64,000 nucleotides of DNA. Source: Crossaster papposus (lineage: Eukaryota; Echinodermata; Asteroidea; Velatida; Solasteridae). A program made the position numbers and the translations under genes. The stretch's first letter is position 1. Each line of letters opens with the position of its first letter. The notes under the pieces were generated by a model, which made no database searches, was not told the origin of the DNA, and was given only the letters and a program-made list of their open reading frames with translations. Shown here one piece after another: positions 11,797-63,400 of the stretch. The stretch covers positions 682,001-746,000 of the forward strand of contig JBAIAA010000412.1 in the NCBI GenBank assembly GCA_037893245.1. Reading direction: 5' to 3'.

Positions 11797-12071
11797 CTCA
11801 GACTGTATTTGTTTTTGTCGAGATCACCGTTAGCAAATATAGACTTCGTACAGCTAAGTTTTAGGTGGAGTTGTTACACCAAAACATACATTGTGAGAGT
11901 TTTATTGAGCGTACTTATTCAGCTCACCGACGAAAGTTTAGCACATGTGTACATGGAACGCAGTGACGACCAGCGCGTACGCACTGTTGTTATGAACACG
12001 ACGACGACTGGAGAACTTTTATGATAATCGTGTAGTGCACGAGTCAAAGGTCACGCAAGCACCGGGACAAA

Positions 12072-13804
12072 ATGGCGGCGTCCACGGGCTACATTGGAAA
12101 GCTTGGCACTTATGACAAATCTAAGGAGCCGTTTAGCTCTTACATGGAGAGAGCTGACATGTTCTTCATGGCTAACAACATAACGGAGACCAGCGGTGAA
12201 GGAGAGGCAGTGATTGCCGCAAATGAAGCCGTTCGAGAACGCATGAAAGCGATTCTGCTCACGGAGATCGGTCCGGAAGTGTACGGCACACTTGTAAATC
12301 TTCTCGCCCCCAAGAAAGCAAAGGATGTGCCCTTCAAGGACATTTTGAAAAAGTTGGAAGACCATTTCAATCCAACACCTCTGGAAATAGCTGAAAGCTA
12401 CAAATTCGGCACCAGAAACCAAAAACAGAATGAGAAAGTCAGTGAGTACATTCTTGCATTAAAAAACTTAACTTTGCACTGTAACTTTGGGACTTTTCTT
12501 GATCGAGCTTTACGAGACAGATTTGTTTGTGGGTTAGTGGATGAGCGAATTCAATCAAAGCTCTTGAATACTACAGATCTCACATTTGAGAGAGCATGTA
12601 AGGTAGCTACTACAATGGAGATGGCATCAAAGAATGCTCGTGAGTTTCGTCCACCACAAACTGTTGCAGCTGTTCATAGTCACAAAGCAGGGCCTGTCAC
12701 CAGAACAAAAAGCACTAAACAGAAACCAAAGCCAAGTGGGGAGACTAGTTCAGCCAGTTGTTATCGCTGCAATGGTAGTCACTCATCAAACTCGTGTTCG
12801 TTCAAAACAGCAAAGTGCTATAACTGTCAAAAGAAAGGTCACATCGCATCCGCATGTCGGGCTAAATCTAAAGTAGGGAATAGACAACCTGTGGGAAACA
12901 AGCGTCAATTCCAACAGAAAGGAGTTCACAACTTGGAGGTGGACCCAGATGGAGATGAACTTAGCTTGTACACCATTTATGCAACCAACGTTGACAAACC
13001 TACAACTAGCAAAGGCAAGGACTTTAAAACCCAACTACTGGTTAACGGCCAGTCACTTGAGATGCGCATCGACACTGCAGCAGACTGTTCCGTCATGAGC
13101 AAAGACATGTATGAAACCAAGTTTGGACAGATACCATTGTCTGCGAGTAAGGTTCAGCTTAAAACCTACTCGGGTGAAGTCTTGGAGACATGTGGACAAA
13201 TGGACTGTAAAGTTCAATACAAGGGCCAGTCTTTAACACTGCCCATCATCGTAGCTTGCTATCGCAACAAACCAACTCTCCTTGGTAAGGATTGGCTGTG
13301 TAAACTAAAGCTGGACTGGAAAAACATTTTCAGTGTTGATTCATCAGAATCATGCCTCAACAATCTGCTAGATAGATATGCAGAGATGTTTGCCGACAGT
13401 TACACAGGCATCACAGGATACACTGCACACATTCGACTAAGACAGGAAGTAAAACCAGTGTACTGTAGACCGAGACCTGTACCATACGCACTAAAGCAAC
13501 AAGTAGAGGAAGAACTGGAGAAGTTGGAGAAAAATGGGGTGCTAGTGAAGACAACACAGAGCGATTGGGCAACACCAGTAGTAGTTGTGCCCAAGGCTGA
13601 CAAAACTGTTAGACTCTGTGGTGACTACAAGGTCACTATCAATCAAGCGGTTGACGATGAACAATACCCATTGCCAACCTCGCAGGATCTGTATGCAGAA
13701 CTTAGCGGATCAAGAGTCTTCACAAAATTGGATTTGTCACACGCATATGCTGAACTCAATGTTGACAAGGAAAGTCAACCTTACTTAACAATCAACACAC
13801 ATAA
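12072..13804 (+). pseudogene. Gypsy gag-pol, first part (gag, protease, RT fingers)
   Basis: One frame from the ATG at 12072 runs through a capsid-like region, two CCHC knuckles (CYRCNGSHSSNSC and CYNCQKKGHIASAC, about residues 236-262), and a retropepsin-like site (IDTAADCSVM). It continues into the RT start (KPVYCRPRPVPYALK, then FTKLDLSHAY). The protease shows DTAAD where DTG or DSG is usual. Gag and pol share a frame with no slippage site. The frame is interrupted at 13805 by a MITE and continues after it. Confidence 0.88.
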
Positions 13805-14442
13805 GGGGCTGTCCAAAGTTGTCAACATTTTTAAGGTCGTACAGAGCGTACTACTTTTCAAGACCCCCCCTCCCTCCCCCCAAAGTAGTACTTTTCAACA
13901 TTTAGTCCAAACACCGGTAGAGCGCGGTGGGGCATTGCGTGCACGATGTCCATGCAGTGTCAAAGGTTATTCATTCACGTTTGGCACATTCCCGCGCTCA
14001 TTTAGGGCTAGGGCATCAATGTGTGTATTTACACCGCATGGTTAACGTTGCGCTATACAAAATCATTGACAACTCGGTCGCCGCGGCATGTAGTGCGGGC
14101 GGCGTAAAAAGTATCTCATCCTCGCAAGATAGCTAGCCAGGGACGCCTCGGTTTTTTTTTCTCGGAGTTGCACAATAGCTGTTAACAAGGTATAACCATA
14201 CCTGCCGAAGCAATCATTTTTGAACAGCGGACTTTGTATCGCTTCTGATTTTAACGTTGAAAATTCTTTAGAGATAAAAAAAGAAGGAAACAAAACCAAT
14301 TATATAATTATCTTTTGCTGTTTGTACGGTACAAAATCAACATTTTATTCACAATTTAAAGTTGTACGCGGCCTCCGACCCCCCTCCCCCCTGTCGTACG
14401 CTTTGTACGACCATTAAAATGTTGAAAACTTTGGACGGCCCC
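13805..14442. mobile_element. Harbinger-like MITE nested in the Gypsy RT
   Basis: 638 bp with imperfect ~50-bp terminal inverted repeats starting GGGGC(T/C)GTCCAAAGTT, flanked by the 3-bp duplication TAA (13802-13804 and 14443-14445). A TWA target duplication and G-rich termini are typical of PIF/Harbinger elements. The Gypsy reading frame continues on the far side once the insert and one TAA are left out of account. Subterminal C-rich/G-rich runs lie inside both ends. No transposase. Confidence 0.85.
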
Positions 14443-14445
14443 TAA

Positions 14446-15311
14446 GGGCTTATATTCATATACAAAGTTGCCCTATGGTGTGAAGTCTTCCCCGAAGATC
14501 TTCCAGTCGGTCATGGATAAAATGTTGCAAGGCATACCACATATTGTGTGCAACCAGGATGACCTACTCATATCCACGGTAGGCATGAAGGAACACCTGG
14601 AAATCCTCGGACAGGTTTTCGCACGACTCGAGAGTCACAATGTCAAACTGCGACAAAGTAAGTGTGCATTTGCGCAGTCTGAAGTGGTATACCTTGGACT
14701 CAGAGTAGACGCCAATGGACTTTGCCCCGTCAAGGCAAAAATTGAGGCCGTCGTGAATGCTCCAGAGCCTAAAAACGTGTCGGAGCTAAGATCATTCCTT
14801 GGAATGGTGCAGTTCTACGCACGATTCCTTCCAGATCTTGCAACTGTGCTACAGCCACTACATATCTTGCTACAGAAAGACCAGACTTGGATGTGGGGGA
14901 AGGAACAACAACGTGCATATGAAACCTGCAAGAAAAACTTGACAAGTAATAAACTCCTTGTTCACTATGACACGACACGCGAATTGAAACTTGCTTGTGA
15001 TGCTTCAAGCTATGGTGTAGGTGCAGTGATCTGCCACGTCATGGATGACGGACAGGAAAAGCCTATTGCTTTCGCATCTCGCACGCTATCATCGAGTGAA
15101 CGCAATTATGCACAGATAGAAAAGGAAGCACTCGGCATCATCTTTGGAGTCAAGAAGTTCCATCAATTCCTTTTGGGAAGACCATTCACGCTTGTGACTG
15201 ATCATAAGCCACTACTAACAATACTTGGTCCCAAGTCAGCAATACCTACCACGGCTGCATCGAGAATGCAACGATGGGCAATTCTGTTGTCCATGTATGA
15301 CTATAAAGTTG
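14446..15311 (+). pseudogene. Gypsy pol, second part (RT palm, thumb, RNase H)
   Basis: Resumes the RT with KLPYGVKSSPKIFQSVMDK. The catalytic block is VCNQDDLLIS, so the usual aromatic residue before the xDD is not seen. Connection (LRSFLGMVQFYARFLPDL) and RNase H (LACDASSYGVGAVICHVMDD, TDHKPLL) follow. The frame runs into the inverted LTR piece at 15312 and stops there, without integrase. Confidence 0.88.
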
Positions 15312-15392
15312 AGTATCATGAGTGCTTTATTATAAGCTATGCAGTACGCATGCTCAACCTCTGCTCATTAACATATGTATGAATACATTACA
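15312..15392 (-). repeat. Inverted 81-bp copy of the Gypsy LTR start
   Basis: A perfect reverse complement of 11645-11725. It directly follows RNase H coding sequence and ends at the GCGAC target repeat. Confidence 0.95.
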
Positions 15393-19229: not shown

Positions 19230-20843
19230 TCAGCCGATGCCTTCTCGGGAGCATCTGATGGTCGCCTCCCACACATCCCGGTCCAGCATGAGAGTCCTCA
19301 GTTCAGTGGTTTCTTGTTGTGCTGCGTCCTTCTTCAACTGGTCGACAAATGAGAGTCTCCTTCTGCCCCTGCTCCTAGCTCCATCAACAGGTTCCCATAG
19401 TATTAGAGGGCTCACAGCTAGCTCTGGATGACGCACACAGTGGCCTGCCAGCCTCATCCTCTGCTCTCTGACCTTAGCAGAGACTCTAGGCAGGGCATCG
19501 TAGAGCTGGATGTTAGGCACACGGTCTTCCCAACTGATGTTGAGTGCCATCCGTAGCATTCGTGTGTAGACGCCGTCTAGTGCTCTTTCTTGCTTGGCTG
19601 TCATCGTCCAAGTCTCGGCTCCATACAGAAGTACCGACTACGAATAGACGTCTCTTGATGTTGTCAGTGAGACTAGATCTCCATATTCGATTCATGCCAT
19701 GGAGGGCCTTCCATGCCATGGAGGGCCTTCCATGCCCAAGCTCTCCTCATTCTCATCTCACTTTCAGTCGATCCTATGAGGGCGCCGAGATATTTAAACT
19801 CCTCAACGACCTCTAGGGTAGCACCATCACGGGACTTGATGATACTGTCCTCCAAGTTCAATGCCATCACCTTGGTCTTCTTCGGATTAAGCTTCAACCC
19901 TACTCTACAGCATTGGAGCTCCACAGCTGCAAGCAACTCTTGTGCTTGGTCCACCGTGTCGGAGAGAAGACTGATATCATCAGCGAAGTCCAGATCAGTG
20001 ATTACCACTGCTGGTACTCTTCGACTCCGGCGTCTGGCGAGCGTGAAGCCTAGCTCCTCCTCCTTTCCCTCGACTGCCAGCCTCATCGCATAGTCCAACA
20101 CAAGTACGAACAAGAAGGGCGCCAGCGTGTCCCCCTACAGGACTCCGGCCTGGATCTCAAAAAGGTCTGTAGCACCGTCTGGGGTGACGACCTTTGCCAA
20201 CGTCTTGCTGTAACCTGCCAGAATTGCCATCACCATCTTCTCTGGGACGCCATACGCACGAAGAATCTCAATGAGTTTACCTCTGTGCACAGTGTCAAAT
20301 GCTTTTTTTAAATCGATGAAGGCGATGACACATGTCAGGTTTTTATCCTTGACTCCTTCCAGTAAGGATCTGCCCGACTGTGGATCGCATTGGGCAAAAG
20401 CCATTCTGCGAGTCTCGCAGGACTGGATCAAGTACAGGGCGTATGCGATGCAAGAGCATACGGTTGTATGTCTTCATGATAAGCGAGGACAGACTAATCC
20501 CTCGGTAGTTTCCAGGCTTTGAGAGGTCTCCTGACTTGGGTACTGGTACGATATTGAGAGTAACCCACTCCTCAGGTAATTCCCCCGACTGGTAGGCTTT
20601 GTTTATGAGAGCTAGTACTGTGTTGTCTAGTGGTACATACTTGAGTAACTCGGGTGTTACTCCGTCGCCGCCACAGCTTTTTCCCGTCTTGATGTTTGAC
20701 TTGGCCTTCTGGTACTCCTCTACGGTGAAGGGACCATCTGGTATGGGCAGATTACTAAACACCTGGGCTACTAGTGTGTCCACATCTTCTATCTCGGGCG
20801 GGTTCCCTAACAGCTTCTGAAAGTGTGCGTACCAGAGCAGCAC
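19230..20843 (-). pseudogene. LINE reverse transcriptase region
   Basis: Palm motifs appear in order over three overlapping frames: KTGKSCGGDGVTPELLK, NGFCPMRSTVGQIL, FIDLKKAFDTV, FADD, then LNPKKTKVMALN. The FADD catalytic pair is preserved. The element is inactive because of at least three frame breaks. Confidence 0.8.
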
Positions 20844-20991
20844 TCTTTCCTCAGAACTTGGGGCCTTGAGCTTAGCAGCTTGGGAGCTACGTCGACCAGT
20901 AATGTCGTTGATCAGCTTCCAGCTACTTGAGTGCCGCTGAGCTGCATGCGCATTCTCAACCTCTGCTATCTTTTGCTCCAGTTCCTCTCTC

Positions 20992-22294
20992 TCAACAGTA
21001 GCATAAAAAAACGTATAGCACCTGCTTCTTCAACGTGTACTCCTCCCGCAGTGGCTCAGAATTTGGATATCTGTTGAAGGCACTATGTGCCATGAGCATT
21101 CTCTGTCTAGCTGTGTCAACTCTTGGGTCCTTGCTTCTCTCTGTTTTCCTCTTCCTCTCCACTTTCTTCAGACAAGCTTCTGCAGCCTCATGGTTCGCGG
21201 ACAAAAAGTGCTTGTAGAGGTCTGAAAGCTCGTCCTCGTCACTTTGCAGTGCTTGGTACCTATTCTTGACTTTGACAGCATAGCGAGCCTGTAGCTCCTT
21301 GTTTGTGGCTAATTCGTCCCACTCGTACTTGGGCTTTCCAGCTGAGATTCTTGGTACTCTCAAGCTAAGACGCACTGTTTCTGTCACCACTCTATGATCC
21401 GAGTATAGGGACCCAGAAGAAGAGTAGGCTTCACAGTTGTTGACACTTGTCCTCCACTTCCTATGCACAAGTACGTAGTCCAGTTGGTGGGTCGTATTCT
21501 GCGGTGACCTCCATGTCCACATCTTGCCTCTCCTCTTCTGGAAAAGAGTGTTGGCTGCTAGAAGTCGGTTACCATTAGTGTTGGTTTTGGGGCTGGCTGT
21601 GAACGCTACATCATCAGGGCCTAGCGTGGCATTAAAGTCGCCAAGAACAGCAAGGAAGTTGTGTTGAGCGACTGACTCGAGTGCATGCCTCAATTTGCAG
21701 TAGAAGTTTACCTTGTTCTCAACGTCGTCACCCTCTGTTGGCGCATACGCCACGATGATGGTCAATACTGGGTTACCCTGGAACGTTGCCTTAATGATCC
21801 TCTCTGACACTCGCTCCACAGCTTTCAGAAGTTTCTGCGCTGTCATCCCAAGTACGAGACCCACTCCTCCAGTTGCTGCATTGCTCGAGTTGCGCCATGC
21901 TGATGCAGTGTAAAGTGCCAGTCCCAGTTCGGTCCTGATGGTGTTAATCTCTTGCTCTCTCCCTTCCTTGTGTACAAGTCTGTGTTCCTGTAAACCACAG
22001 ACCTCGATGTCCCACTTCGTTACATTCCAAGCGAGCTCCCCCCTTCCGTCCACTGCCTACATCCTGGGATGAGCCGAGTGTCCGGATATTGAAGGTCGCA
22101 AGTCTGAGAGGACGTTTGCACTTCAAGATTTTGGTAGCTGCTCCCCGCCGTCCATCTGTCGGTACCCTTCCACATGGTGGGTTTGGGGCAACAACTTCAT
22201 CATCAGACATCTTCTGTTGACGGGTCAAAGCTACCAGGCTCCTGGGGACTCCGGCCCCTGGAAGTATACGATTTGTGTTTCTTGCTTCCATCAT
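20992..22294 (-). pseudogene. LINE endonuclease region (two frames)
   Basis: An apurinic-type endonuclease with all main catalytic blocks visible, including SDHRVV near 21390-21410. One frameshift near 22040 separates its first ~80 residues from the rest. The long frame ends at 20992, before the RT starts. Confidence 0.8.
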
Positions 22295-27420: not shown

Positions 27421-27466
27421 TTTAGGAAGTAGAGGGAATAATTTTTTTAAGTTTCTGCTGAATAAA

Positions 27467-30400
27467 GGTTATATAAAGGTTATATAAAGGTTATATAAAG
27501 GTTATATAAAGGTTATATAAAGGTTATATAAAGGTTATATAAAGGTTATATAAAGGTTATATAAAGGTTATATAAAGGTTATATAAAGGTTATATAAAGG
27601 TTATATAAAGGTTATATAAAGGTTATATAAAGGTTATATAAAGGTTATATAAAGGTTATATAAAGGTTATATAAAGGTTATATAAAGGTTATATAAAGGT
27701 TATATAAAGGTTATATAAAGGTTATATAAAGGTTATATAAAGGTTATATAAAGGTTATATAAAGGTTATATAAAGGTTATATAAAGGTTATATAAAGGTT
27801 ATATAAAGGTTATATAAAGGTTATATAAAGGTTATATAAAGGTTATATAAAGGTTATATAAAGGTTATATAAAGGTTATATAAAGGTTATATAAAGGTTA
27901 TATAAAGGTTATATAAAGGTTATATAAAGGTTATATAAAGGTTATATAAAGGTTATATAAAGGTTATATAAAGGTTATATAAAGGTTATATAAAGGTTAT
28001 ATAAAGGTTATATAAAGGTTATATAAAGGTTATATAAAGGTTATATAAAGGTTATATAAAGGTTATATAAAGGTTATATAAAGGTTATATAAAGGTTATA
28101 TAAAGGTTATATAAAGGTTATATAAAGGTTATATAAAGGTTATATAAAGGTTATATAAAGGTTATATAAAGGTTATATAAAGGTTATATAAAGGTTATAT
28201 AAAGGTTATATAAAGGTTATATAAAGGTTATATAAAGGTTATATAAAGGTTATATAAAGGTTATATAAAGGTTATATAAAGGTTATATAAAGGTTATATA
28301 AAGGTTATATAAAGGTTATATAAAGGTTATATAAAGGTTATATAAAGGTTATATAAAGGTTATATAAAGGTTATATAAAGGTTATATAAAGGTTATATAA
28401 AGGTTATATAAAGGTTATATAAAGGTTATATAAAGGTTATATAAAGGTTATATAAAGGTTATATAAAGGTTATATAAAGGTTATATAAAGGTTATATAAA
28501 GGTTATATAAAGGTTATATAAAGGTTATATAAAGGTTATATAAAGGTTATATAAAGGTTATATAAAGGTTATATAAAGGTTATATAAAGGTTATATAAAG
28601 GTTATATAAAGGTTATATAAAGGTTATATAAAGGTTATATAAAGGTTATATAAAGGTTATATAAAGGTTATATAAAGGTTATATAAAGGTTATATAAAGG
28701 TTATATAAAGGTTATATAAAGGTTATATAAAGGTTATATAAAGGTTATATAAAGGTTATATAAAGGTTATATAAAGGTTATATAAAGGTTATATAAAGGT
28801 TATATAAAGGTTATATAAAGGTTATATAAAGGTTATATAAAGGTTATATAAAGGTTATATAAAGGTTATATAAAGGTTATATAAAGGTTATATAAAGGTT
28901 ATATAAAGGTTATATAAAGGTTATATAAAGGTTATATAAAGGTTATATAAAGGTTATATAAAGGTTATATAAAGGTTATATAAAGGTTATATAAAGGTTA
29001 TATAAAGGTTATATAAAGGTTATATAAAGGTTATATAAAGGTTATATAAAGGTTATATAAAGGTTATATAAAGGTTATATAAAGGTTATATAAAGGTTAT
29101 ATAAAGGTTATATAAAGGTTATATAAAGGTTATATAAAGGTTATATAAAGGTTATATAAAGGTTATATAAAGGTTATATAAAGGTTATATAAAGGTTATA
29201 TAAAGGTTATATAAAGGTTATATAAAGGTTATATAAAGGTTATATAAAGGTTATATAAAGGTTATATAAAGGTTATATAAAGGTTATATAAAGGTTATAT
29301 AAAGGTTATATAAAGGTTATATAAAGGTTATATAAAGGTTATATAAAGGTTATATAAAGGTTATATAAAGGTTATATAAAGGTTATATAAAGGTTATATA
29401 AAGGTTATATAAAGGTTATATAAAGGTTATATAAAGGTTATATAAAGGTTATATAAAGGTTATATAAAGGTTATATAAAGGTTATATAAAGGTTATATAA
29501 AGGTTATATAAAGGTTATATAAAGGTTATATAAAGGTTATATAAAGGTTATATAAAGGTTATATAAAGGTTATATAAAGGTTATATAAAGGTTATATAAA
29601 GGTTATATAAAGGTTATATAAAGGTTATATAAAGGTTATATAAAGGTTATATAAAGGTTATATAAAGGTTATATAAAGGTTATATAAAGGTTATATAAAG
29701 GTTATATAAAGGTTATATAAAGGTTATATAAAGGTTATATAAAGGTTATATAAAGGTTATATAAAGGTTATATAAAGGTTATATAAAGGTTATATAAAGG
29801 TTATATAAAGGTTATATAAAGGTTATATAAAGGTTATATAAAGGTTATATAAAGGTTATATAAAGGTTATATAAAGGTTATATAAAGGTTATATAAAGGT
29901 TATATAAAGGTTATATAAAGGTTATATAAAGGTTATATAAAGGTTATATAAAGGTTATATAAAGGTTATATAAAGGTTATATAAAGGTTATATAAAGGTT
30001 ATATAAAGGTTATATAAAGGTTATATAAAGGTTATATAAAGGTTATATAAAGGTTATATAAAGGTTATATAAAGGTTATATAAAGGTTATATAAAGGTTA
30101 TATAAAGGTTATATAAAGGTTATATAAAGGTTATATAAAGGTTATATAAAGGTTATATAAAGGTTATATAAAGGTTATATAAAGGTTATATAAAGGTTAT
30201 ATAAAGGTTATATAAAGGTTATATAAAGGTTATATAAAGGTTATATAAAGGTTATATAAAGGTTATATAAAGGTTATATAAAGGTTATATAAAGGTTATA
30301 TAAAGGTTATATAAAGGTTATATAAAGGTTATATAAAGGTTATATAAAGGTTATATAAAGGTTATATAAAGGTTATATAAAGGTTATATAAAGGTTATAT

Positions 30401-33351
30401 AAAGGTTATATAAAGGTTATATAAAGGTTATATAAAGGTTATATAAAGGTTATATAAAGGTTATATAAAGGTTATATAAAGGTTATATAAAGGTTATATA
30501 AAGGTTATATAAAGGTTATATAAAGGTTATATAAAGGTTATATAAAGGTTATATAAAGGTTATATAAAGGTTATATAAAGGTTATATAAAGGTTATATAA
30601 AGGTTATATAAAGGTTATATAAAGGTTATATAAAGGTTATATAAAGGTTATATAAAGGTTATATAAAGGTTATATAAAGGTTATATAAAGGTTATATAAA
30701 GGTTATATAAAGGTTATATAAAGGTTATATAAAGGTTATATAAAGGTTATATAAAGGTTATATAAAGGTTATATAAAGGTTATATAAAGGTTATATAAAG
30801 GTTATATAAAGGTTATATAAAGGTTATATAAAGGTTATATAAAGGTTATATAAAGGTTATATAAAGGTTATATAAAGGTTATATAAAGGTTATATAAAGG
30901 TTATATAAAGGTTATATAAAGGTTATATAAAGGTTATATAAAGGTTATATAAAGGTTATATAAAGGTTATATAAAGGTTATATAAAGGTTATATAAAGGT
31001 TATATAAAGGTTATATAAAGGTTATATAAAGGTTATATAAAGGTTATATAAAGGTTATATAAAGGTTATATAAAGGTTATATAAAGGTTATATAAAGGTT
31101 ATATAAAGGTTATATAAAGGTTATATAAAGGTTATATAAAGGTTATATAAAGGTTATATAAAGGTTATATAAAGGTTATATAAAGGTTATATAAAGGTTA
31201 TATAAAGGTTATATAAAGGTTATATAAAGGTTATATAAAGGTTATATAAAGGTTATATAAAGGTTATATAAAGGTTATATAAAGGTTATATAAAGGTTAT
31301 ATAAAGGTTATATAAAGGTTATATAAAGGTTATATAAAGGTTATATAAAGGTTATATAAAGGTTATATAAAGGTTATATAAAGGTTATATAAAGGTTATA
31401 TAAAGGTTATATAAAGGTTATATAAAGGTTATATAAAGGTTATATAAAGGTTATATAAAGGTTATATAAAGGTTATATAAAGGTTATATAAAGGTTATAT
31501 AAAGGTTATATAAAGGTTATATAAAGGTTATATAAAGGTTATATAAAGGTTATATAAAGGTTATATAAAGGTTATATAAAGGTTATATAAAGGTTATATA
31601 AAGGTTATATAAAGGTTATATAAAGGTTATATAAAGGTTATATAAAGGTTATATAAAGGTTATATAAAGGTTATATAAAGGTTATATAAAGGTTATATAA
31701 AGGTTATATAAAGGTTATATAAAGGTTATATAAAGGTTATATAAAGGTTATATAAAGGTTATATAAAGGTTATATAAAGGTTATATAAAGGTTATATAAA
31801 GGTTATATAAAGGTTATATAAAGGTTATATAAAGGTTATATAAAGGTTATATAAAGGTTATATAAAGGTTATATAAAGGTTATATAAAGGTTATATAAAG
31901 GTTATATAAAGGTTATATAAAGGTTATATAAAGGTTATATAAAGGTTATATAAAGGTTATATAAAGGTTATATAAAGGTTATATAAAGGTTATATAAAGG
32001 TTATATAAAGGTTATATAAAGGTTATATAAAGGTTATATAAAGGTTATATAAAGGTTATATAAAGGTTATATAAAGGTTATATAAAGGTTATATAAAGGT
32101 TATATAAAGGTTATATAAAGGTTATATAAAGGTTATATAAAGGTTATATAAAGGTTATATAAAGGTTATATAAAGGTTATATAAAGGTTATATAAAGGTT
32201 ATATAAAGGTTATATAAAGGTTATATAAAGGTTATATAAAGGTTATATAAAGGTTATATAAAGGTTATATAAAGGTTATATAAAGGTTATATAAAGGTTA
32301 TATAAAGGTTATATAAAGGTTATATAAAGGTTATATAAAGGTTATATAAAGGTTATATAAAGGTTATATAAAGGTTATATAAAGGTTATATAAAGGTTAT
32401 ATAAAGGTTATATAAAGGTTATATAAAGGTTATATAAAGGTTATATAAAGGTTATATAAAGGTTATATAAAGGTTATATAAAGGTTATATAAAGGTTATA
32501 TAAAGGTTATATAAAGGTTATATAAAGGTTATATAAAGGTTATATAAAGGTTATATAAAGGTTATATAAAGGTTATATAAAGGTTATATAAAGGTTATAT
32601 AAAGGTTATATAAAGGTTATATAAAGGTTATATAAAGGTTATATAAAGGTTATATAAAGGTTATATAAAGGTTATATAAAGGTTATATAAAGGTTATATA
32701 AAGGTTATATAAAGGTTATATAAAGGTTATATAAAGGTTATATAAAGGTTATATAAAGGTTATATAAAGGTTATATAAAGGTTATATAAAGGTTATATAA
32801 AGGTTATATAAAGGTTATATAAAGGTTATATAAAGGTTATATAAAGGTTATATAAAGGTTATATAAAGGTTATATAAAGGTTATATAAAGGTTATATAAA
32901 GGTTATATAAAGGTTATATAAAGGTTATATAAAGGTTATATAAAGGTTATATAAAGGTTATATAAAGGTTATATAAAGGTTATATAAAGGTTATATAAAG
33001 GTTATATAAAGGTTATATAAAGGTTATATAAAGGTTATATAAAGGTTATATAAAGGTTATATAAAGGTTATATAAAGGTTATATAAAGGTTATATAAAGG
33101 TTATATAAAGGTTATATAAAGGTTATATAAAGGTTATATAAAGGTTATATAAAGGTTATATAAAGGTTATATAAAGGTTATATAAAGGTTATATAAAGGT
33201 TATATAAAGGTTATATAAAGGTTATATAAAGGTTATATAAAGGTTATATAAAGGTTATATAAAGGTTATATAAAGGTTATATAAAGGTTATATAAAGGTT
33301 ATATAAAGGTTATATAAAGGTTATATAAAGGTTATATAAAGGTTATATAAA
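27467..33351 (+). repeat. 11-bp satellite, 535 perfect GGTTATATAAA units
   Basis: 5885 bp of GGTTATATAAA with no substitution or change of phase that I could find by following the 660-bp (60 x 11) line cycle. Each unit contains the self-complementary octamer TTATATAA and a TATATAA core. Every frame on both strands has stops. It is bounded on the left by a BLTP1 3' UTR relic and on the right by GGTTATAATAAGGGG. Confidence 0.98.
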
Positions 33352-34561
33352 GGTTATAATAAGGGGTTACAAACGTGCAGTTTGGTTAATAGGAAAATGC
33401 CTTTCAATCCCTAAAACACCTCATTATACGGGGTCAAGTTTTTATTATTAACGAACATTAACAGGTTAAGGATATATTTGATCACATTTATGTTCAACAG
33501 TTTTCTAACATGAATTTATTACTATTCAATTTGCAGTTACACTATTGTATTTTAATTATTATAGGTTTTATTGCGAACTAGCAATAAATGCAACGCCAGT
33601 CTTTACATTCCATTTAAATTTGTCCTTATTTTTATTTTGTCATTTCAGGTTTAAAAAAGGGGTGGTTTGCCTATCATATTGTCAACATTTGGTTCTACAT
33701 TATAAAGACCGAGGCTTCCATTTTATAAATCGTGCACATTTGTTTAAACTAAAGATTAAGGGACTAGGCTTTACAGTTTAGTAATAATATAATTATATTT
33801 AATAAGGGGGTTAGCCTTACAGTTAAATTATCTTTAGTTACATTTCATTATTCCGCAATATTTAGAAATTTAAAATTTAAATGTCTTAAATTGTTAGTTG
33901 GCGGTATATTTATGGAAAATAGTTTCAACTTTGATTAAATTGCAATTTCAGTTTAAAAATGCTATTTAGTATTCACATTTTCTATATTTATAAGTGGTTG
34001 CTTCTTTAGGAAAAAATATCTATTTTTGAAAAATTCATATTCAGAATCATTAGTTTACCCTTAAATTTTTATTAAAATGTTGCAGATTAGCCTACTATTT
34101 TAAATTAATCACCATTTATTATTGGGGGTACTTTTCTATTACGTGTACGTTATAGCTTTGAATGTTTCTTCACTAATAAAATTGTCATGGCTTAGCCTTG
34201 CATTTTAACAAATAGCACACAGTTAATTGCTTGGGTTCTTTAGTTGTTGGTTTTTTTAAATAGGTTAAGGGCATTGTAAAAGCGAACCTTTTCGTTGACG
34301 GAAAATTTAGTTCTTACTATAAAACATGTTGAGTGGGGATGTATTCAAGGGATTTCAAGGCATCTTCCAAACAAAATCAAAATTGGTTAATTGAAGGTTG
34401 AATAAATATTAGACTAGTAAGAAAGTGAATAAACAGAAATGTGACATGCATGAAAAACATTTCAGTATTTTAACAATTAGTAATACAAAATATAATGCAT
34501 TTCAGTTTGGAATAATACACTCGACACAGTTTGGGGGTCATCTTTATTGTATTTCTTCAAT
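33352..34561. other. AT-rich spacer
   Basis: No gene found. An open frame of 78 codons at 33545-33781 has no recognisable features and fits chance in AT-rich DNA. Confidence 0.4.
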
Positions 34562-45044: not shown

Positions 45045-48000
45045 CTGAAAAAAAGACAATAAAACGGTGTCAAGATTTTTCAGGGAAATTAAATATGTTA
45101 AGGGCTTAACCTTACATGTTTAGAAAAACCCTTACATTTGATTCAATTTTACACTCAAACCCTTGTTAATTTTTCCCCAATGTTGGTCAACGAAATATCA
45201 AACTTTGCCCATTTTGTTTTTCTTTTGAGTATTCAACTTTTTAAAACAAAGGCATTTCTTTTGTTGCTATATGTTTTAAACCTTAAAAAGAAGAATATAT
45301 TTTAATCAAACATATCCGGCCAAATTACTTCCTAGCATTATTGGCAAAATGTACCACATAAAATGAAAAATACAAGAAACCCTTTCCGCCAGTGGGCATA
45401 TAATCTTGTGTGCCAAAGAATCTCAATCAAGCAGGGGTTGGACTTGTTCCAAAAAAGCCTGGACCATTACAGATCCAGGGAAGCAGGTGGGGGAAGGGGT
45501 GGGGGGTAGGGGGAAGGGGTGGGGGGTAGGGGGAAGGGGTGGGGGGTGGGGGAAGGGGTGGGGGGGAGAGAGGTTAAGGGAAGAGAGGTGAGGGAAAGGT
45601 TGCCAAATTATTCCACGATGTCATCAGCCAATGTCATCAGCCGTGACCACACAGCTGTATTGTATGTTAAGTCCGCAGGGTGCAGAAACATAAACAAGGT
45701 GGGTTCTTAAACCCCGTGTTTTGCCAGCTTTCACGATTACCCCAGCAGAATGCAGGGGCACTGATAGCATGAGCATCATATTCCAAGTTTCCAAAGTGCA
45801 TCTGTAATTAAAGTCTGATTGTAAATGAACTTCAAGTTTTCAAAGGATACCAGTTTTACATTTCCAGCCTATTTTACAACTTGACCTCAAAAGACATTTG
45901 ACCTCGGTACCATTATGATCGCGTTTGATTACTTACACTATACTCTTACAAGCAAGACAATGTTTGAATTAAAGGTAGGATACACCATTGGTAATTGCTT
46001 GAATTAACATGAATGGGTGGATTTGGAGGGTTGTATTTTATAGTAAATATTGTTTAATTAACCTGTCGGAAGTTTTACAATCATGAATGCCGAGAAAAGC
46101 ACAAAAAACAGCGTTTCTTTTCAACCGGCGTCGAGCAGTTATTTTTATGTTATTTGTGTTTTTTCTTAATCGCCGTCTGGCGATCGCGAATTTTTCTTTA
46201 TAAAATTTTTCAGAGTAATTAAAGGATATCTAGCGCAATCATTTTGCAGGATGCCTAGAATCATTAGTTACTTTCAGATGAGTAAGATATTTCTTAATAA
46301 TTCGGTAGTAATTTGTTTCAATATCTGCAAATGGTGTATCCTACCTTTAACTCTTACGCAACTTTTCGCGCTTACTTGAGCCTGGCCCTAGTAACTGACC
46401 CAATGAACCGGTTACTTGAGTAAGTATCCCATAAGGTCTGGCTAAAACATGGCTGCCATGTCTGGCAAGGCGCCAGCGGTAGAAAATTGAGAAAACAAAT
46501 CCAAATTAGTCTGAACAATGCAGCGACATGAATCCATTTCTAGAGTTTTCAAGAAAGGAAAACAGAAGTTATCACTCTTGCATGTGTTCCCGTATTTACG
46601 TATGAAAGTTACTCGTTGAGTCGAGTGACCCAAGATCGTTTTTAAACCAAACTTTAACTTATAACCAAAACGCCACAAACTTACATACAGTGTACATAGA
46701 TAATTACAGTAAACCAATGATGAAATCTGGATTTGTACCTGTACTACAAGCTTTGCCTGGGAGCTCTTGCCATATATTTTCGGTGTGAAGCCAACCGTTA
46801 TCAGTGTTCCGTTTGTACCGATGGGTTTCAGTTCACCGGATTGTGGGCTGACGGTAAATTCTTGATCACTACCAGCAACGAAATAGGCATTGAATGCAAC
46901 GGGATGTCTGCAGAAATACAAATATTTGTAAAAAAAGAAGAGAATTGTCACATTATTCGGTTTTTGTCCATTTAGATTCCTGACAATTTACAAAAATTGA
47001 CCGAAATCTCCCAAATTCAGGCGCTCAGAAAGTTAATACGTCGAAAATATGCTTCAACACCCAATTTGTTGGATGTTTAACTAGGCCTGCTACATGGGAG
47101 AATTGTGTCTCTTTAATCTTTGGATGAACAACATATCTTAACATTCTGCTTAATGAACAATGACGTTGTATTTATGCTAAATCTTGAAAACCTTGGAGTT
47201 TGTTAACTGCCAAATAATTTAACATTGAGCATTTTTACAAACTTTGGTCACAGTTGCATAAAACACAGTTACTAATTCCATCAAAAAATCCATAAAAATT
47301 ACATTTCTTCAAAATGTTGGGAGCTGACTGACCACTTGAAATCTAGCTAAGTTGTGACATAAATTTGGCCTTTACGTCTAACAATCAAAACCATGCACAT
47401 CTGACAGCAGGAGAAGCTGGCAACTTTCCAGCACACGTGTCTTGAGCCAGCCCAGGAAAACCACCCAGTACTTTATCCAACTCGCACCCAATCACATTTG
47501 TCATTTCTTAAAAGGCAACATCCGATCTGGTCTATACAGCAAGTTTTTTAAGTACAGGAAAATATCTGATCGCTTGTCATAATCAGGCCACAACTTCAAA
47601 CTTTGATATCCTTCTACAACTGGTTTTACAAAAAACGAAAAAACAAACAAAAAACAGCTAATCGGATTAGGTATTAAGATTTCCTTTTACTGACAGACGA
47701 GTGGAAGATTTGGCTAAGTTATAAAGCCCAACAGCATGGCAGAGTTGAGAGTCTCCGATCAATGTTTTGAGACGGAACTCAGGCCCAGCTGTTGGAAACC
47801 ACAAAGACGTCACGCGACGGGCCCTGGGCAAATTGGAGTTGACAGACTGCGTACTCCGTGCCAGGTGATATTAATCCAGCCCAGGATGCACCAGAGATCT
47901 TATTAATGTTATCAAAGGAAGCGTAGACGTGAAAAGTGTGGCACTGTGGCACTGGAGGGTATCAAAAGTGGGCTTTGTCTCGAGGCTTGGTGGCCCTGGT

Positions 48001-54400: not shown

Positions 54401-57400
54401 CCTTAATATACCTTCTCCAACCACCACACCATCTGTAATATTAGCCTTCTTCATTCCTTTGGGAGTCACAGCCCTTGTCGTCACACTGTGGTGGTAGCCG
54501 CTAGCCGAGCTAGGGACAGCGCCGGACAAGGATACCTCCAATCTTTCCTCAATGCGGCTCCGTGCCCGACAGCTGACCACAGCGCCGCGATCAATGACGG
54601 GCTGGGATTCTGGGATGCCATGGATGGGGTACAGCCAGCGAATGTCACACAGTCCACCTTGCGTGTCTCGCCGATCGTAGTCCCTGAAATCATGTATGGG
54701 GAACAAATTAAGACAGTTACATAATCAAGTTCCTCGATACTCAAAAGAGAAATCAAAAATGTTTCTATTAGAAAGCAACATCCTCACTCGCAGCAGAAGC
54801 CGAATTGTATTGGATACAGTTACCACGTGGTTGAGCCGAAGCCAAACACATGACCCATGTCCGACCACAAAGCACGTACAGCCAGTGTTGATTTTTTCCA
54901 GAGGGAGAAAAACCCTTAAGCTCAGAGAAAAACCCTTGTGGCACAGGAGAGAAATGAACAAACCACACTACTCACATAATGGTCCGAGCTGGGAATCGAA
55001 CCCGAGCCACAGTGGTGAGAGATAATCACTTTATGCCAAGATGTCACGGATGAAATTCATCTATCTTGCCACTTTGCCACAGGCTGATCGTTCATAATTA
55101 GTTCAGTATGATTTTTGTCAGTTCTAGTATATCTTGCTAACATCATGAAACATACTTGGCCACATTTCTTCTGTAATAATTAACCTTATTATCCTGAATA
55201 GTGCTGAATCAATTAATTTTAAACAAATTTTCATACAGTCTATAGGGGGTGAGGGTTAAGAGAGAACGATATCATTGAAAGAGTATTGGCTTTTTGATAA
55301 GAGAGTTTAGACAAATAATCCATCTGGTCCAAGAACTGCCTCTATATCTCATTCTGATACAGAATCTAGAAGCCTTCAGGACAAAGCCTATCCGAATATA
55401 CCAGGCATCCTAGTCCTCAATCTTACCTGCGTGCATACGGATGATCCGGATCCTTACACGGTTCGTACTCCCAGCTAGACCCGTCCTCCCTCCTGACGGC
55501 CACCACGCACAGTGCCTCGTGCAGTCTCATGTTGCCTGGGGCAAAGGTCAAGGGTATATCCAGGGTGCTCTTGGGCCCGACAGAGATCCCCGTGGTGTGC
55601 TTGAGGAGCAGACAGAAGGCCGATTCCGTCTGGATCCTGTTGCGCTCTAGCTTGTTGCGAGCCCGGTCCAGCAGATCCGTGTTATCTAGGATTGCGCGCC
55701 AAAAATCGATGACGTTATAAAATCTTTGTACGTAGCAGCCTTTAAAATGCTCATTTCACATTGGAAGTAAGTAAACTTATATGCCATGGTGTGTTACGAG
55801 CATGCATTTCTTAACAATGCAGTTAACGCCGGGTTTAATGTGACATTGATCTGGCCCAGGTGCGGGGTTGTTTTTCACGAACCTTGATCCAGGATGGGTT
55901 CAGACCAGCATCTGTGGGTAGCACACCCTAATATATTTATCCTGGCTCGTGCGAGGCGGTTGCTGACAGATATTTCCGGCCTTGCTCTGTTTTGAACTTT
56001 GCGTGTATACACATCCTCCGACATGTAATATTATTCAAGACTGGTTCATTATTCAAGTGAAGGTTGGTCTGAAGTGAATTTGTTAGGGATCAGTACAGCA
56101 AACTTTACAATGACACTTCCAATGTTGATGTCACAACATTTGCTTTGCTTTCACTTGAACCGGAGATTCTTGCATGTGGTTAGTACAGCCAGGGAAAAAA
56201 ACAAATTTGTACACAAATTTGGTAACTAATTCACATCTGCCAATAATTTACCCTTGCTTACCAGAGAGCACCACGTCAATCAACACTGCCTCGTTCAGCG
56301 GGTTTCTGAACGGTATGATGAGTGAGGTGTTTGACCCTAGGATGGCACTGACACTGACTGGGTCAAGAGGCGTAGGGGTCAAGCCGGTACCAGATGCCAT
56401 GAAGACCCAATCGCCCAGCTGCTCGCAGGAGAAGGCTAGCCGGGCCAGGTGATTACCTTGGCCCAGGGAGGAGGGCATGAACTGGAGGGGGACCTCTTGG
56501 GTCGAGTGTGGAGCAAGGATGATCTAGGCAGCAGGAATTAAAGCAGAGATCATTAGAAACTGGAAGGCTATGTCACAAAGAGAATGGCATGTACTGGAGA
56601 GGGGTCTCTTGGGTCGAGTGTGGAGCAAGGATGATCTAGGCATCAGGAAATAAAGTCAAAGATCATTAGAAACTGGAAGGCTATGTCCTTGGGAGGAGGG
56701 CATAAACTGGAGGGGGATCTCTTGGGTTGAATGGGGTGCTAGGATGATTTAGGTACCAGGAAATAAAGACAGATCATTAGAAACTGGAAGGCTATGCCCT
56801 AGAGAGGAGGGCATGGACTGGAGGGGGACCTCTTGGGTCGAGTGGAGTGCTAGGATGATCTAGGTACCAGGAGATAAAGACAGATCATTAGAAACTGGAA
56901 GGCTATGCCCTAGAGAGGAGGGCATGGACTGGAGGGGGACCTCTTGGGTCGAGTGGAGTGCTAGGATGATCTAGGTATGAGGAACTATAGGCTATGCCCT
57001 AGAGAGGAGGGCATGGACTGGAGGGAGACCTCTTGGGTCGGGTGGAGTGCTAGGATGATTTAGGTATGAGGAACTATAGGCTATGCCCTAGAGAGGAGGG
57101 CATGGACTGGAGGGGGACCTCTTGGGTCGAGTGGAGTGCTAGGATGATCTAGGTATGAGGAACTATAGGCTATGCCCTAGAGAGGAGGGCATGGACTGGA
57201 GGGGGACCTCTTGGGTCGAGTGGAGTGCTAGGATGATCTAGGTATGAGGAACTATAGGCTATGCCCTAGAGAGGAGGGCATGGACTGGAGGGGGACCTCT
57301 TGGGTCGAGTGGAGTGCTAGGATGATTTAGGTATGAGGAACTATAGGCTATGCCCTAGAGAGGAGGGCATGGACTGGAGGGGGACCTCTTGGGTCGAGTG

Positions 57401-60400
57401 GAGTGCTAGGATGATCTAGGTATGAGGAACTATAGGCTATGCCCTAGAGAGGAGGGCATGGACTGGAGGGGGACCTCTTGGGTCGAGTGGAGTGCTAGGA
57501 TGATCTAGGTATGAGGAACTATAGGCTATGCCCTAGAGAGGAGGGCATGGACTGGAGGGGGACCTCTTGGGTCGAGTGGAGTGCTAGGATGATCTAGGTA
57601 TGAGGAACTATAGGCTATGCCCTAGAGAGGAGGGCATGGACTGGAGGGGGACCTCTTGGGTCGAGTGGAGTGCTAGGATGATCTAGGTATGAGGAACTAT
57701 AGGCTATGCCCTAGAGAGGAGGGCATGGACTGGAGGGGGACCTCTTGGGTCGAGTGGAGTGCTAGGATGATTTAGGTATGAGGAACTATAGGCTATGCCC
57801 TAGAGAGGAGGGCATGGACTGGAGGGGGACCTCTTGGGTCGAGTGGAGTGCTAGGATGATCTAGGTATGAGGAACTATAGGCTATGCCCTAGAGAGGAGG
57901 GCATGGACTGGAGGGGGACCTCTTGGGTCGAGTGGAGTGCTAGGATGATCTAGGTATGAGGAACTATAGGCTATGCCCTAGAGAGGAGGGCATGGACTGG
58001 AGGGGGACCTCTTGGGTCGAGTGGAGTGCTAGGATGATCTAGGTATGAGGAACTATAGGCTATGCCCTAGAGAGGAGGGCATGGACTGGAGGGGGACCTC
58101 TTGGGTCGAGTGGAGTGCTAGGATGATCTAGGTATGAGGAACTATAGGCTATGCCCTAGAGAGGAGGGCATGGACTGGAGGGGGACCTCTTGGGTCGAGT
58201 GGAGTGCTAGGATGATCTAGGTATGAGGAACTATAGGCTATGCCCTAGAGAGGAGGGCATGGACTGGAGGGGAACCTCTTGGGTCGAGTGGGGTGCTAGG
58301 ATGATTTAGGTATGAGGAACTAAGGCTATGCCCTAGAGAGGAGGGCATGGACTGGAGGGGAACTTCTTGGGTCGAGTGGGGTGCTAGGATGATTTAGGTA
58401 TGAGGAACTAAGGCTATGCCCTAGAGAGGAGGGCATGGACTGGAGGAACCTCTTGGGTCGAGTGGGGAGCAAGGATAATCTAGGTATCAACAAATAATTC
58501 CAAATTTTTTACTGGAAAAACTAAGTTAGCTGCGTATACGGAGTCAATTCTTTCAGGACTGGAGAGGGGAGGAAATAAAAGGGGAAAACATAATAGCTGC
58601 GGCCAATTGACAAGAAATGTAATGACTTTTATATGAATTGCAAAAAAAATGGAAATATGCATTTTTGTGAGTCAAAACCATGGTTTCCCTTGGCATGAAG
58701 GACTGCACAGTTAAATTTTTAACAATTTTGTTTTAGTCAAATACCTTTTTAGCACATCTAGCATGAAAACAATTCAAAGCATTTATACCACTACCATATT
58801 AAGTACAACATTCGCCGCAAAAAGGACAGAACCCCCTCTACATGACCTTAGATACATAAAGTCGTTCTACCATATTCTAGGACAATGTGGCTCTACAACC
58901 ATTTTGTTCAACAAAGGTTTTCTCATACAAAATATTTCAACATTTCTAAATTAAAAACAAAAAACCGAGGTAGAGTTTTTGTACCTTGGTTTCTCCCTCT
59001 ACTTCCAGAGTGAAGTTATTGGTATTGGAGCAGCTAGGAGTTAGCTCTAGGGTCTCCTCTGTAGGGTTACTGAGTGTGATGAACTGACGGCTCCATTTAC
59101 CCAACTCACACTCCATGTGGGGGAGTACGGTAGGGGCCGGGGGCTCGGCGGTCAGGCTTAGGGTGTACCAGAACTCGCCCACAGTCTCGTTCTGGAAGAT
59201 AAGGCTGGAAGCAAAGACAATTACAGAGTAAAACTCCTGTTAAATTGTGGTTAAAGGGATCGTATATGTTTGGTAATTGGAACCCATTGTTTGTTTCAAT
59301 CCTATATAGTTATAGATATATACCATACAACTAACCTGTAAACATTTCATTTTAAAAGGTGGTAGCGATTTTGAGATATTGCCGAAAATCTGGAGCGGTT
59401 ATGTCCACGCAGGAAGAATAATCTGTATTGGAATACACAATCTGAGAAACGTCACTGCAGTAACGCTTCTCAGATTCAAATTTTTGGGAGTAAAAAGTGT
59501 TTTCTTTTTCCATAACCGCAGTACTTCGAAGTGAAAAGTTTCTAAAAATGCATTATACTATCCAAAGCTGCTGTACTTCTTACCAAGTAAGTTTTTATTG
59601 CCATTAATTTTTGGAGTAATTACCAAACGTATACGATCCAATTAAGTGTACATGTAAAATTCCATTTGCTTCAGTAACGACAGTTTGGTTTTGTTAGCTT
59701 GTTGACATTTAATACTGGATGTCTCATGTTTTGACGGGTTTAATCGACTGATGATTTTCTCTCACCTTCCCTCAGATTTGCCAACAATTGCCGGTGCATA
59801 CACCAACTGATACATCCGCTTCTCTTCTTGTGTCAACGTCACCTCCCCCTCCCCTCTTAGCCCCTCCCCCTCGACGACCGTCGAGAACGTCAGATCGTTG
59901 ACCGTCGGGTTGAAGATCTCGACCTCCATGGCCATGGCCGACTGCGCCGCACAGACGATCGCGATGTTGCGTTCGGGCGGGGGCGGACTACAACGCGCCT
60001 CGAGGGAGTACCAGACCCGGTAGCCAGGTTTGGATTGGTGGAGGCGGATGGAGGCGGAGCTTGACGAGGACTTGCCGCTGATTGGTCGCTTGTCGGAGTC
60101 CAGGCAGGAAGGGGCGTCGCTGTCTTCAGTCGATTGCTCATCTCTGTAGTACAGATGGAAAGTGAATTTCTTGTTGGGTTGGAAAATTTAGACAAAATGT
60201 TTCAAATGAACATCTAAATGGTAAACTCTATTGTTAAAATTAATAGTAAAAAAGTATAATGTGAAAGTTTGCAGTGTGACGTAGCGATGTTCAGATGAAC
60301 ATGTGTACATCCAACATTTCAAACATTATGCTTTTTGAAAGGCAATTAGAAGGGTCAACATTAATGTTATCTAAATTTCACGTTTTCCAAATTTACGTTT

Positions 60401-63400
60401 ACGCAAACCAAATTTACAGATCAATATTACTAAAATCAGCTTAGGCCAGAAAGAAACAGAATCAATGTCGTAGAATGTCAACACTTTTTAACTTACTTTA
60501 GATTTCCTGTGCCGCCAGCAATGAAGGACAGGATGCCTCGGAATGTACCCCGTTTCCATGGCGATACAGTGATGACGTAATCAGCCTCCTTGCCCGGTAG
60601 AACGGTGACACTTGGCACGGTGCCATTGACGAAGGAGAGATCAGACACGGCGCGGTAGGTCAGCTTGTGTTGGGTGACGTTAGGGACGCGAATCACACGC
60701 TTCACACTGTGACAGAAGAAAAAAAGACAGGTTGAAAAGAATAGTAAACACATCAAACTTTTACAACGGTTTTTCCTAATTTATGGAAAAGATTCAGATA
60801 GAAAAAGGGTATTTGATGCAATTTTGTCAACAAGAAATTGCAAGTCGTTGCAAATCTTCACAAGCCAATCACAAGTTAAGCTGTAAATAATTTGTTTAAA
60901 CGATTACAAAGTTACATTGTTCATGTGAGCTCTTATGACTATACTTTTGAATCGACTTGTGTTGACATCAAATCTGTGTGATAATGGAACTATTTTTCTG
61001 TTCCCGATTTCAAGAGATTGTTATTTAGACAATGTCGAACAGTTCTGACTTTTTGAAATTGTCAGTCGCAGTGAAGTGATAAATCGTGTGCACAGTCTAT
61101 CGAAAATAGGTCACTTCATCAGTGGTGTGGAAACCAAAATTGTGCCGCGTCTGTCAAGAAGTTCCTTTTGCCATTTGTGTACTTACGATTGGCGAACCTG
61201 ACAGTCTAAGATGACGTGATCCAGAGCCAGAGGTTTCTGTCCTTCTCCCTTCAGTCGGAAATGATGCTCTGTGCCGTCCTCGCTGTTAGTCAATACCAAC
61301 TTGCCCTGCAAGCAACAGAATAATTATAGGTCTAATTTTTACTCTAGGACATATGCTATCAACAAAATAAATTGGGAAATGAAGTCTAAAACACCAAACC
61401 TTACACTTTGTTATCTGTTTGAAGCTGGAGTAGACCATTTGTCAGTCAGTTGAGCATTTCTATCGTTTGAAGTAGAAAAAGTGTTCAAAATCTTTTTAAC
61501 CAGTTCACGCTAGAGGACGTATATAAACGCAAAGTTTTCCCCAGATTCAAAACGGATGACGCATAAACATGTCACGAGCAAGGCCGGAAATGTCTGTCAG
61601 CAGCGAGCGAGGCCGGAAATGCGTGGGTGTGCTTCCCGGTACCATCGGCTTGAACCTGCCTCGGATCGAATTTCAATAAAAATAATCCTGTGCCTCGGCT
61701 CGGTGATGTTTAAATAATCCTGGCGCGAACTGGTTAATTAAACAATGAGTACATAAGAGTATCTCTCGTGGAACTGCACAGACCATCAAGATGGCAGCCG
61801 CGCAAACAGTCTATATCAAAATAACTTACAGAGACGAGGGTCTCGAAGGCTGGTCTGAACATGAGCGGATACTGTGTGGTCTGCATAGCCTTAGCCAGGA
61901 TGAAGGGAGGACCATAGAATCCCTGGCCATCAATGGAGGCAGTCAAGGGCCAATCAACACTGGTCTGATTCACCTGCAGGAAACAAACCAGAATTACCAA
62001 TCCAAATTTGGTAATTTGCATAATAGACCACCCCCATGTTGTTTTGACCAACCACAGTCATGAATTCAAATGACTTCAAATTATTAACTAGGTGTAGGAC
62101 AAAGTTAACACCCTGTACAACTTGTCTGTTTTGTTTTTCCAAAATACATTCTGCTTTTATCCCTGGAACCTTCCTGAATCTATAAAAATCATCCACCGAT
62201 AGCAAATTCTATGAACCCAAGGTTGCAAGGGGTTCCAAATGCCTTGTATCGACGGCAAATCTTCCTCAATCCAACAAAATCTTGGTTTTTGAAGGCTTTT
62301 GAAGGGATTCAGATCAAAGAACACTACATGGAATCGCTACACGACAGTGAATGACTTACGAGTGGTATTTCCTGTGATACCGACTGATGCACCGGCGCAG
62401 TGAACTCTATCTGTGCTGCGTTGCCCTCAGGGTTGACTGTACACTCAATCAGATAGACGCGGATGTCGTTGGGTGATCTTAGAACCACTCGGCATGGGTA
62501 GTGACCGGCAGTCTTGGGGGTGAATTTGACCGACAGACTGACCGTACCGTCATCCAGAATCACGCCTGTTGACCCAAAAGGGTTGTTACAACTAATAATA
62601 TAGTAACCCAACGAATAATGTATCACCAACCGATAATGTCAGACAAATTGACCGATACTGTCCTCATACAATAATGAAACAACAAATGACCGATAGTGTA
62701 GTAACTTTTACTACAATGTCGGTCAATTTCGGTTAGGACCGATAATGTATAACAATTGACCGATAGTACTTGTAGTACATTTTACTCCCAGTCAATTTGT
62801 TGTTACATTATCGGCTAGTGATACAGTATCGGTCAATTTGTGTGACAATATCAATTGGTGATAGAAGGGTATATAAATGAAGTGACCAGATTACAAGTTG
62901 ATCAGCGAAATGTGTAGCTGTTGGACTAGTCTATATGCTTTGTGACAGTTATTAATGAACAATAGATGAATTGGTCTTCACAGTTTGTCATGTCAAACTA
63001 CCTCGATTCTTTTATTGATAAATAGTGACTTAAAGTTGTAGTAGACCATTTGTCACTTGTGCATTTTGATCGTTTGAAGCAGCAAAAATTAAAATTTAAA
63101 AAAAAGGTGTATGACAACTATTACCTGACAAAGTTTTGGCTCTGTGAATGCTGTATTCCAAGAAAATAATATTGTAAGATTTCAATTTTGACTAACTACT
63201 TCTTGTCACTTAATTGAAATTTCCAAAAATACTTCTCTGAGATGCATCTTTGGACTTTGTTTACTATTTTCTTCAAAATGACCGTATGCCAGAAGGAATA
63301 ATTTTACAGGGAGTTTATAGAGTCTTCAATAACATGAACTAAGCTTTTCACCTCCTAGTCCAATAAGTTCCCTATACCCTAGGACACTTAGTTCTCCAGC

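Follow-up and report, generated by a model that had tools for sequence, protein, structure and literature searches.

Within the 64,000-nucleotide stretch analyzed here (the window), an intron of the sperm-tail gene CFAP47 contains a minisatellite whose units repeat the splice acceptor of the exon that follows. The locus raises the question of whether these copies constitute a tunable array of decoy acceptors, as a preliminary description had proposed, or a mostly disarmed repeat that is removed together with the intron. The structure is real and striking, and its sequence favors a mostly disarmed, neutral minisatellite of the "mirage" type over a tunable decoy array.

The host gene and the anatomy of the array

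By its translated exons, the gene bearing the array is CFAP47. Hand-joined exon translations matched CFAP47 of PDB entry 9ijj (E 2.5e-80) and FAP47 of 7n6g (9e-40), and the neighboring exons of the array-bearing gene matched the upstream part of the same 9ijj chain. The real exon (56262..56523, minus strand) is preceded by CCTAG before 56523 and followed by the donor GTAAGC after 56262, and the array derives from roughly its first 62 bases. The preceding exon (58985..59204, minus strand) ends in a phase-0 donor, AAG|GTACAA, at 58985, while its own acceptor at 59204 was placed from frame and consensus. The join 58985/56523 (K|IILAPHST) aligned gap-free to 9ijj CFAP47 near residue 2689 of 3184, which makes this a late exon; the "exon 8" of the preliminary description is merely a count within the window.

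The minisatellite, delimited by TRF and copy alignment, is intronic (56524..58484, minus strand) and consists of 21 tandem head-to-tail copies upstream of the exon at 56523-56262, each containing the exon acceptor and approximately the first 62 exon bases. Every unit begins with the copied exon start and ends with the copied intron tail, and the array lies within the interval bounded by the donor at 58985 and by 56523, where the exon starts. The first exon-like base lies at 58479 in the first unit and at 56635 in the last; counting the real exon at 56523 as well, the minus strand holds 22 copies. Transcription crosses the copies before the real exon, in the order originally described. The original counts of 21 copies, 15 with CCTAG and 6 with CCTAA acceptor endings (units 2, 3, 9, 14, 17 and 20), were both reproduced, and the stated unit length of 89 bp applies to 15 of the 21 but not to the other six, the lengths in order being 86, 88, fifteen times 89, 111, 111, 113 and 112 bp.

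A tandem duplication across the intron/exon boundary is evident in all 21 units, whose exon-like parts share 84–89% identity with the 62 bases that open the real exon. The 89-bp core was scored 3029 by TRF, which shows that the array is not due to chance. This core is homogenized, with units 4–17 variable at only 3 of 89 positions, one of which is the acceptor G/A, and units 1, 20 and 21 are more diverged, so that the array displays a homogenized center and diverged edges.

Such near-identical core units are also what might lead an assembler to expand or collapse a real array, and the BflGb6 haplotype 1 array appears to be misassembled in the lancelet draft genome, as indicated by the Additional file 4 legend of PMC3087553. 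The edge units are nevertheless diverged and distinct, A/G variants tell units apart, and searches of the 1.02-Gb assembly with the array sequence, exon and flank, in which repeat counts are lower bounds, matched no place beyond the single locus. The same searches found no second haplotype or paralogue for copy-number comparison. A copy number that is partly an artefact of assembly is considered unlikely.

A mobile-element origin was rejected, as the 401-bp array query matches one place and the exon-like part belongs to the conserved coding sequence of CFAP47. Elsewhere in the window, long frames at 12036-15382 (plus strand) and 19230-22056 (minus strand) resemble what are presumably retrotransposon gag/reverse-transcriptase pieces. 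Searches of the window for RNA families and tRNAs found 0 and 0.

The 16.3-kb contig C1841 of the assembly is mitochondrial. Its COX1 gene scored 507.8 bits with genetic code table 9, which is common to echinoderms and flatworms, compared to 482.9 bits with table 5, and table 2 gives 8 stops. Its genes are arranged as COX1-ND4L-COX2-ATP6, then ND4-ND5-(minus)ND6, with ND1 and ND2 on the minus strand, which we take to be the echinoderm order in its sea-star form. The contig thus fits an echinoderm host, probably a sea star. Contig C8, perhaps bacterial, carries COX1 genes in long open frames besides the mitochondrial one, together with a long P450 frame.

Acceptor context of the copies

The tail of each unit sits before the acceptor of the next. 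The copied piece of the preceding intron, noted in the preliminary description, is indeed present but differs among units. Units 18–21 (56524..56970, minus strand; 111–113 bp) have long tails of 48–50 bases from CATAG on, which retain a pyrimidine tract and TTCTAAT, whose branch-like A lies 28–30 nt from the acceptor. These long tails serve acceptors 19, 20 and 21 and the real exon, with AG-free zones of 35–37 nt. In units 1–17 (56971..58479, minus strand; 86–89 bp) the tails are shorter by a net 22–23 bases and the parental branch-like CTAAT is removed. The acceptors that they precede, numbers 2–18, have no yTnAy 15–45 nt upstream and are separated from the preceding AG by only 14 nt. Parts of PMC1431707 describe a spliceosome that, in the introns studied, moves linearly from the branch point to the first downstream AG and can skip AGs that lie within ~12–15 nt of that point. 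On those rules, a 14-nt zone would be hard to use.

The real acceptor has a putative branch-like CTAAT, assigned by motif, at 56552..56556 (minus strand), with its A 29 nt from the intron end. Near-complete acceptors of the same kind, each with CTAAT and CCTAG, are found in the tails before decoy 21 (56636..56669, minus strand; 37 nt AG-free) and decoy 19 (56860..56891, minus strand; 35 nt AG-free). The tail before decoy 20 (56749..56780, minus strand) has CTAAT, with CCTAA replacing CCTAG and the next AG 10 nt further in. A diverged intron tail before unit 1 (TTCCAGT...TACCTAG; 58480..58525, minus strand) provides decoy 1 with a 32-nt AG-free zone, without CTAAT and with a poorer pyrimidine tract. 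CCTAG combined with an AG-free zone of at least 22 nt was thus found in 3/21 decoys (1, 19 and 21), and the parental CTAAT as well in 2/21 (19 and 21). The proposed set of 21 usable decoy acceptors was mostly unsupported by this comparison, since decoys 1, 19 and 21 alone resemble the other acceptors of the gene in their AG-free zone. Most copies seem, from their sequence, to have lost the features that a functional splice site requires, and two or three do look usable.

The comparison was calibrated with 11 acceptors of CFAP47 as positive control, the real one among them, all of which (11/11) have an AG-free zone of 22–100 nt. These controls were picked by hand and all border exon pieces in queries aligning to CFAP47; the exact edges at 60706, 62565 and L025:18 are either not covered by the alignments or sit in parts that align poorly, and they were set by frame and consensus. 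The AG-zone argument accordingly relies on 11 hand-chosen sites and on rules from human introns. AGs with an AG-free zone of at least 22 nt numbered 12/162 in the array, the real acceptor not counted, versus 775/2603 in the background, which comprised both strands of the rest of the window, including exons and other repeats. The array is therefore poorer in long AG-free zones than nearby DNA.

A combined branch and tract test, which required yTnAy within the AG-free zone together with 13 or more pyrimidines in 20, was passed by 4/11 control acceptors, the real acceptor being one of the four. This low pass rate indicates that the combined test is insensitive, and the argument rests on the AG-zone comparison instead; a missing yTnAy alone does not exclude acceptor use. 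By the combined test the array (10/162 AGs, real acceptor included) was not different from background (128/2592), and six of the ten passing AGs sit ten bases inside CCTAA-carrying units. The 17 short-tail acceptors seem to descend from one loss and do not count as 17 independent events.

These data bear directly on a functional tandem acceptor array, in which the copies would compete for the spliceosome and copy number would tune full-length versus truncated CFAP47. Retention of CCTAG in 15/21 decoys, the parental context at decoys 19 and 21, and an early stop from each of the 21 decoys are all consistent with such a function. Set against it are the 17/21 acceptors with 14 nt AG-free and without the parental branch-like site, the scarcity of long AG-free zones in the array, and similar lancelet minisatellites that, in the parts of PMC3087553 covered, seemed not to interfere with regular splicing. 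On balance, a functional array is very unlikely.

Decoy use and origin of the array

Entry at any of the 21 decoys in the frame of the exon leads to a stop after 20–51 codons, with 24 codons in 15/21; in the two 111-bp units this in-frame stop is formed by the TAG or TAA of the following acceptor. The early stop anticipated in the preliminary description is present in every copy. Use of a decoy would be predicted to truncate the protein or trigger decay. When the units were searched with four donor patterns (GTRAG, GTAA, GTGAG and AGGT), the sole match was AGGT followed by C or T, in agreement with the earlier statement that the unit has no consensus donor.

The donor search is pertinent to a further explanation, namely that the array represents a step towards the gain of an intron or exon, a process proposed for lancelet globins, in which a decoy exon start could pair with a donor and give rise to a new exon. 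A mirage model of intron gain exists (PMC3087553, in the parts covered), and a donor-like CCAAG|GTAATC occurs 67 nt into the real exon. The units themselves offer only the AGGT match, and the decoy frames contain stops, which together make this explanation highly improbable.

The locus is instead quite probably a mirage-type minisatellite that is spliced out with the intron and consists mostly of disarmed copies. A piece spanning the 3' intron end and the first ~62 exon bases would have been duplicated in tandem, and the copies would then have been multiplied by unequal exchange or slippage, with the real exon as the last copy, still under selection. Copying is likely to have proceeded from exon to array, because the exon side is conserved in 9ijj; this also supports the original view that the units derive from the real CFAP47 exon, namely from its acceptor and first codons. 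One copy may have lost the net 22–23 bases that include the branch-like site, a single loss followed by expansion, and the short-tail form now makes up 17/21 units. The stretch before unit 1 still resembles an intron tail and is probably its decayed first copy, as would be expected if duplication of a piece made of tail and exon start was followed by decay of the first tail. From these features we infer the order of duplication, decay of the first tail and retention of the last copy under selection.

Splicing would most likely join 58985 to 56523 and remove the array with the intron, and decoys 19 and 21, perhaps also 1, may see rare use that yields truncated messages. We do not expect the array to have a regulatory function. 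A broader rule of "disarm, then expand" for mirages across deuterostomes can be formulated, in which complete boundary copies near the exon could not multiply, because they would divert splicing from it, and expansion would be open only to a form that had lost branch site and AG-free zone; this generalization is offered tentatively and is rather doubtful.

A second boundary duplication was found in another intron of the same gene, on the minus strand of piece L025 (C412:746001-756000). Block comparison identified a donor-side tandem duplication (L025:1941-2240; C412:747941-748240) made of two 145-nt blocks, 2240-2096 and 2085-1941, that are 89% identical. A CFAP47 exon donor opens the first block (GACC|GTAAGT), and the second retains GTAAGT. 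Arrays with units of at least 25 bp, both CFAP47 cases included, cover 7482/144000 bases (5.2% of 144 kb), a density at which arrays meeting exon edges now and then need no special cause. Exon edges lay inside an array in 2/11 checked (56523 and L025:2236), both known beforehand, so this is not an unbiased rate. An fn3 survey of boundary arrays at other genes covered 30 loci, all on contig C220 within ~50 kb, and none had a TRF array of unit 25–500 bp. On the same contig, dozens of similar fn3 matches, mostly ~519 bp apart (C220:819235-841199), suggest that a single gene carries a tandem array of exons.

Other tandem repeats are present in the window. Positions 27462-33358 hold 536 copies of the 11-bp unit ATAAAGGTTAT with a TRF match of 100%, and the 2-kb steps from 28001 to 32000 within this repeat have a GC skew of 1.0. 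A G-rich 20-bp tandem repeat, GGGGGAAGGGGTGGGGGGTA, occupies 45489-45565.

Comparison with known systems

Boundary-duplicating minisatellites termed mirages are described, in the parts of PMC3087553 covered, in the amphioxus genes Adh3, BflGb6, BflGb9, TnC and PGBD5, and the covered part of PMC3902484 gives further lancelet cases. With several lancelet genes and a second boundary duplication in CFAP47 itself, the earlier impression that such structures are rare is doubtful for the kind as a whole. Among the titles and abstracts searched, with few subscription papers covered, boundary-duplication minisatellites were reported from lancelets only, with no echinoderm case; human "multiple splice donor" papers also exist. 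An echinoderm boundary minisatellite may therefore be new within the literature covered.

As far as the covered parts of these sources describe them, the amphioxus mirages and the CFAP47 array are alike in being tandem, minisatellite-like copies of an intron/exon boundary, in keeping AG/GT in many but not all copies, and in that duplication can affect either the 5' or the 3' boundary. BflGb6 has the closest anatomy, combining the 3' intron end with the 5' part of the exon, and shares concerted evolution within the cluster that leaves out the boundary units. The hosts differ, as the CFAP47 array resides in what is, by its mitochondrion, an echinoderm and the mirages in lancelets. The CFAP47 array has 21 extra copies compared to 6 and 3 units in two BflGb6 haplotypes, its units measure 86–113 bp compared to 150–160 bp in BflGb6 and 10–72 bp in Adh3, and a loss of the parental branch-like site common to most copies sets it apart from the mirages as described.

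If the mirage reading is correct, boundary-duplicating minisatellites are not specific to lancelets, are found in an echinoderm too and can exceed 20 copies beside a conserved gene. The mixture of short and long units would then constitute a natural test of which signals allow acceptor copies located immediately before a real one to be passed over by the spliceosome.

Outside the lancelets, the human gene 6-16 (IFI6/G1P3) reportedly carries a donor minisatellite, said to have been described by Turri in 1995, that resembles the CFAP47 array in being built from a splice boundary and in presenting repeated splice sites. The human repeat is reported to be on the donor side, with short units and donor use, whereas the CFAP47 array is on the acceptor side and known from sequence alone. 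NAGNAG and other tandem 3' splice sites likewise place competing acceptors near one exon; those of the NAGNAG type are 3 nt apart in the covered part of PMC3250501, while the CFAP47 copies are mostly 89 nt apart and mostly without the parental branch-like site. Among these systems, the CFAP47 array looks like a harmless repeat of the type already described in lancelets.
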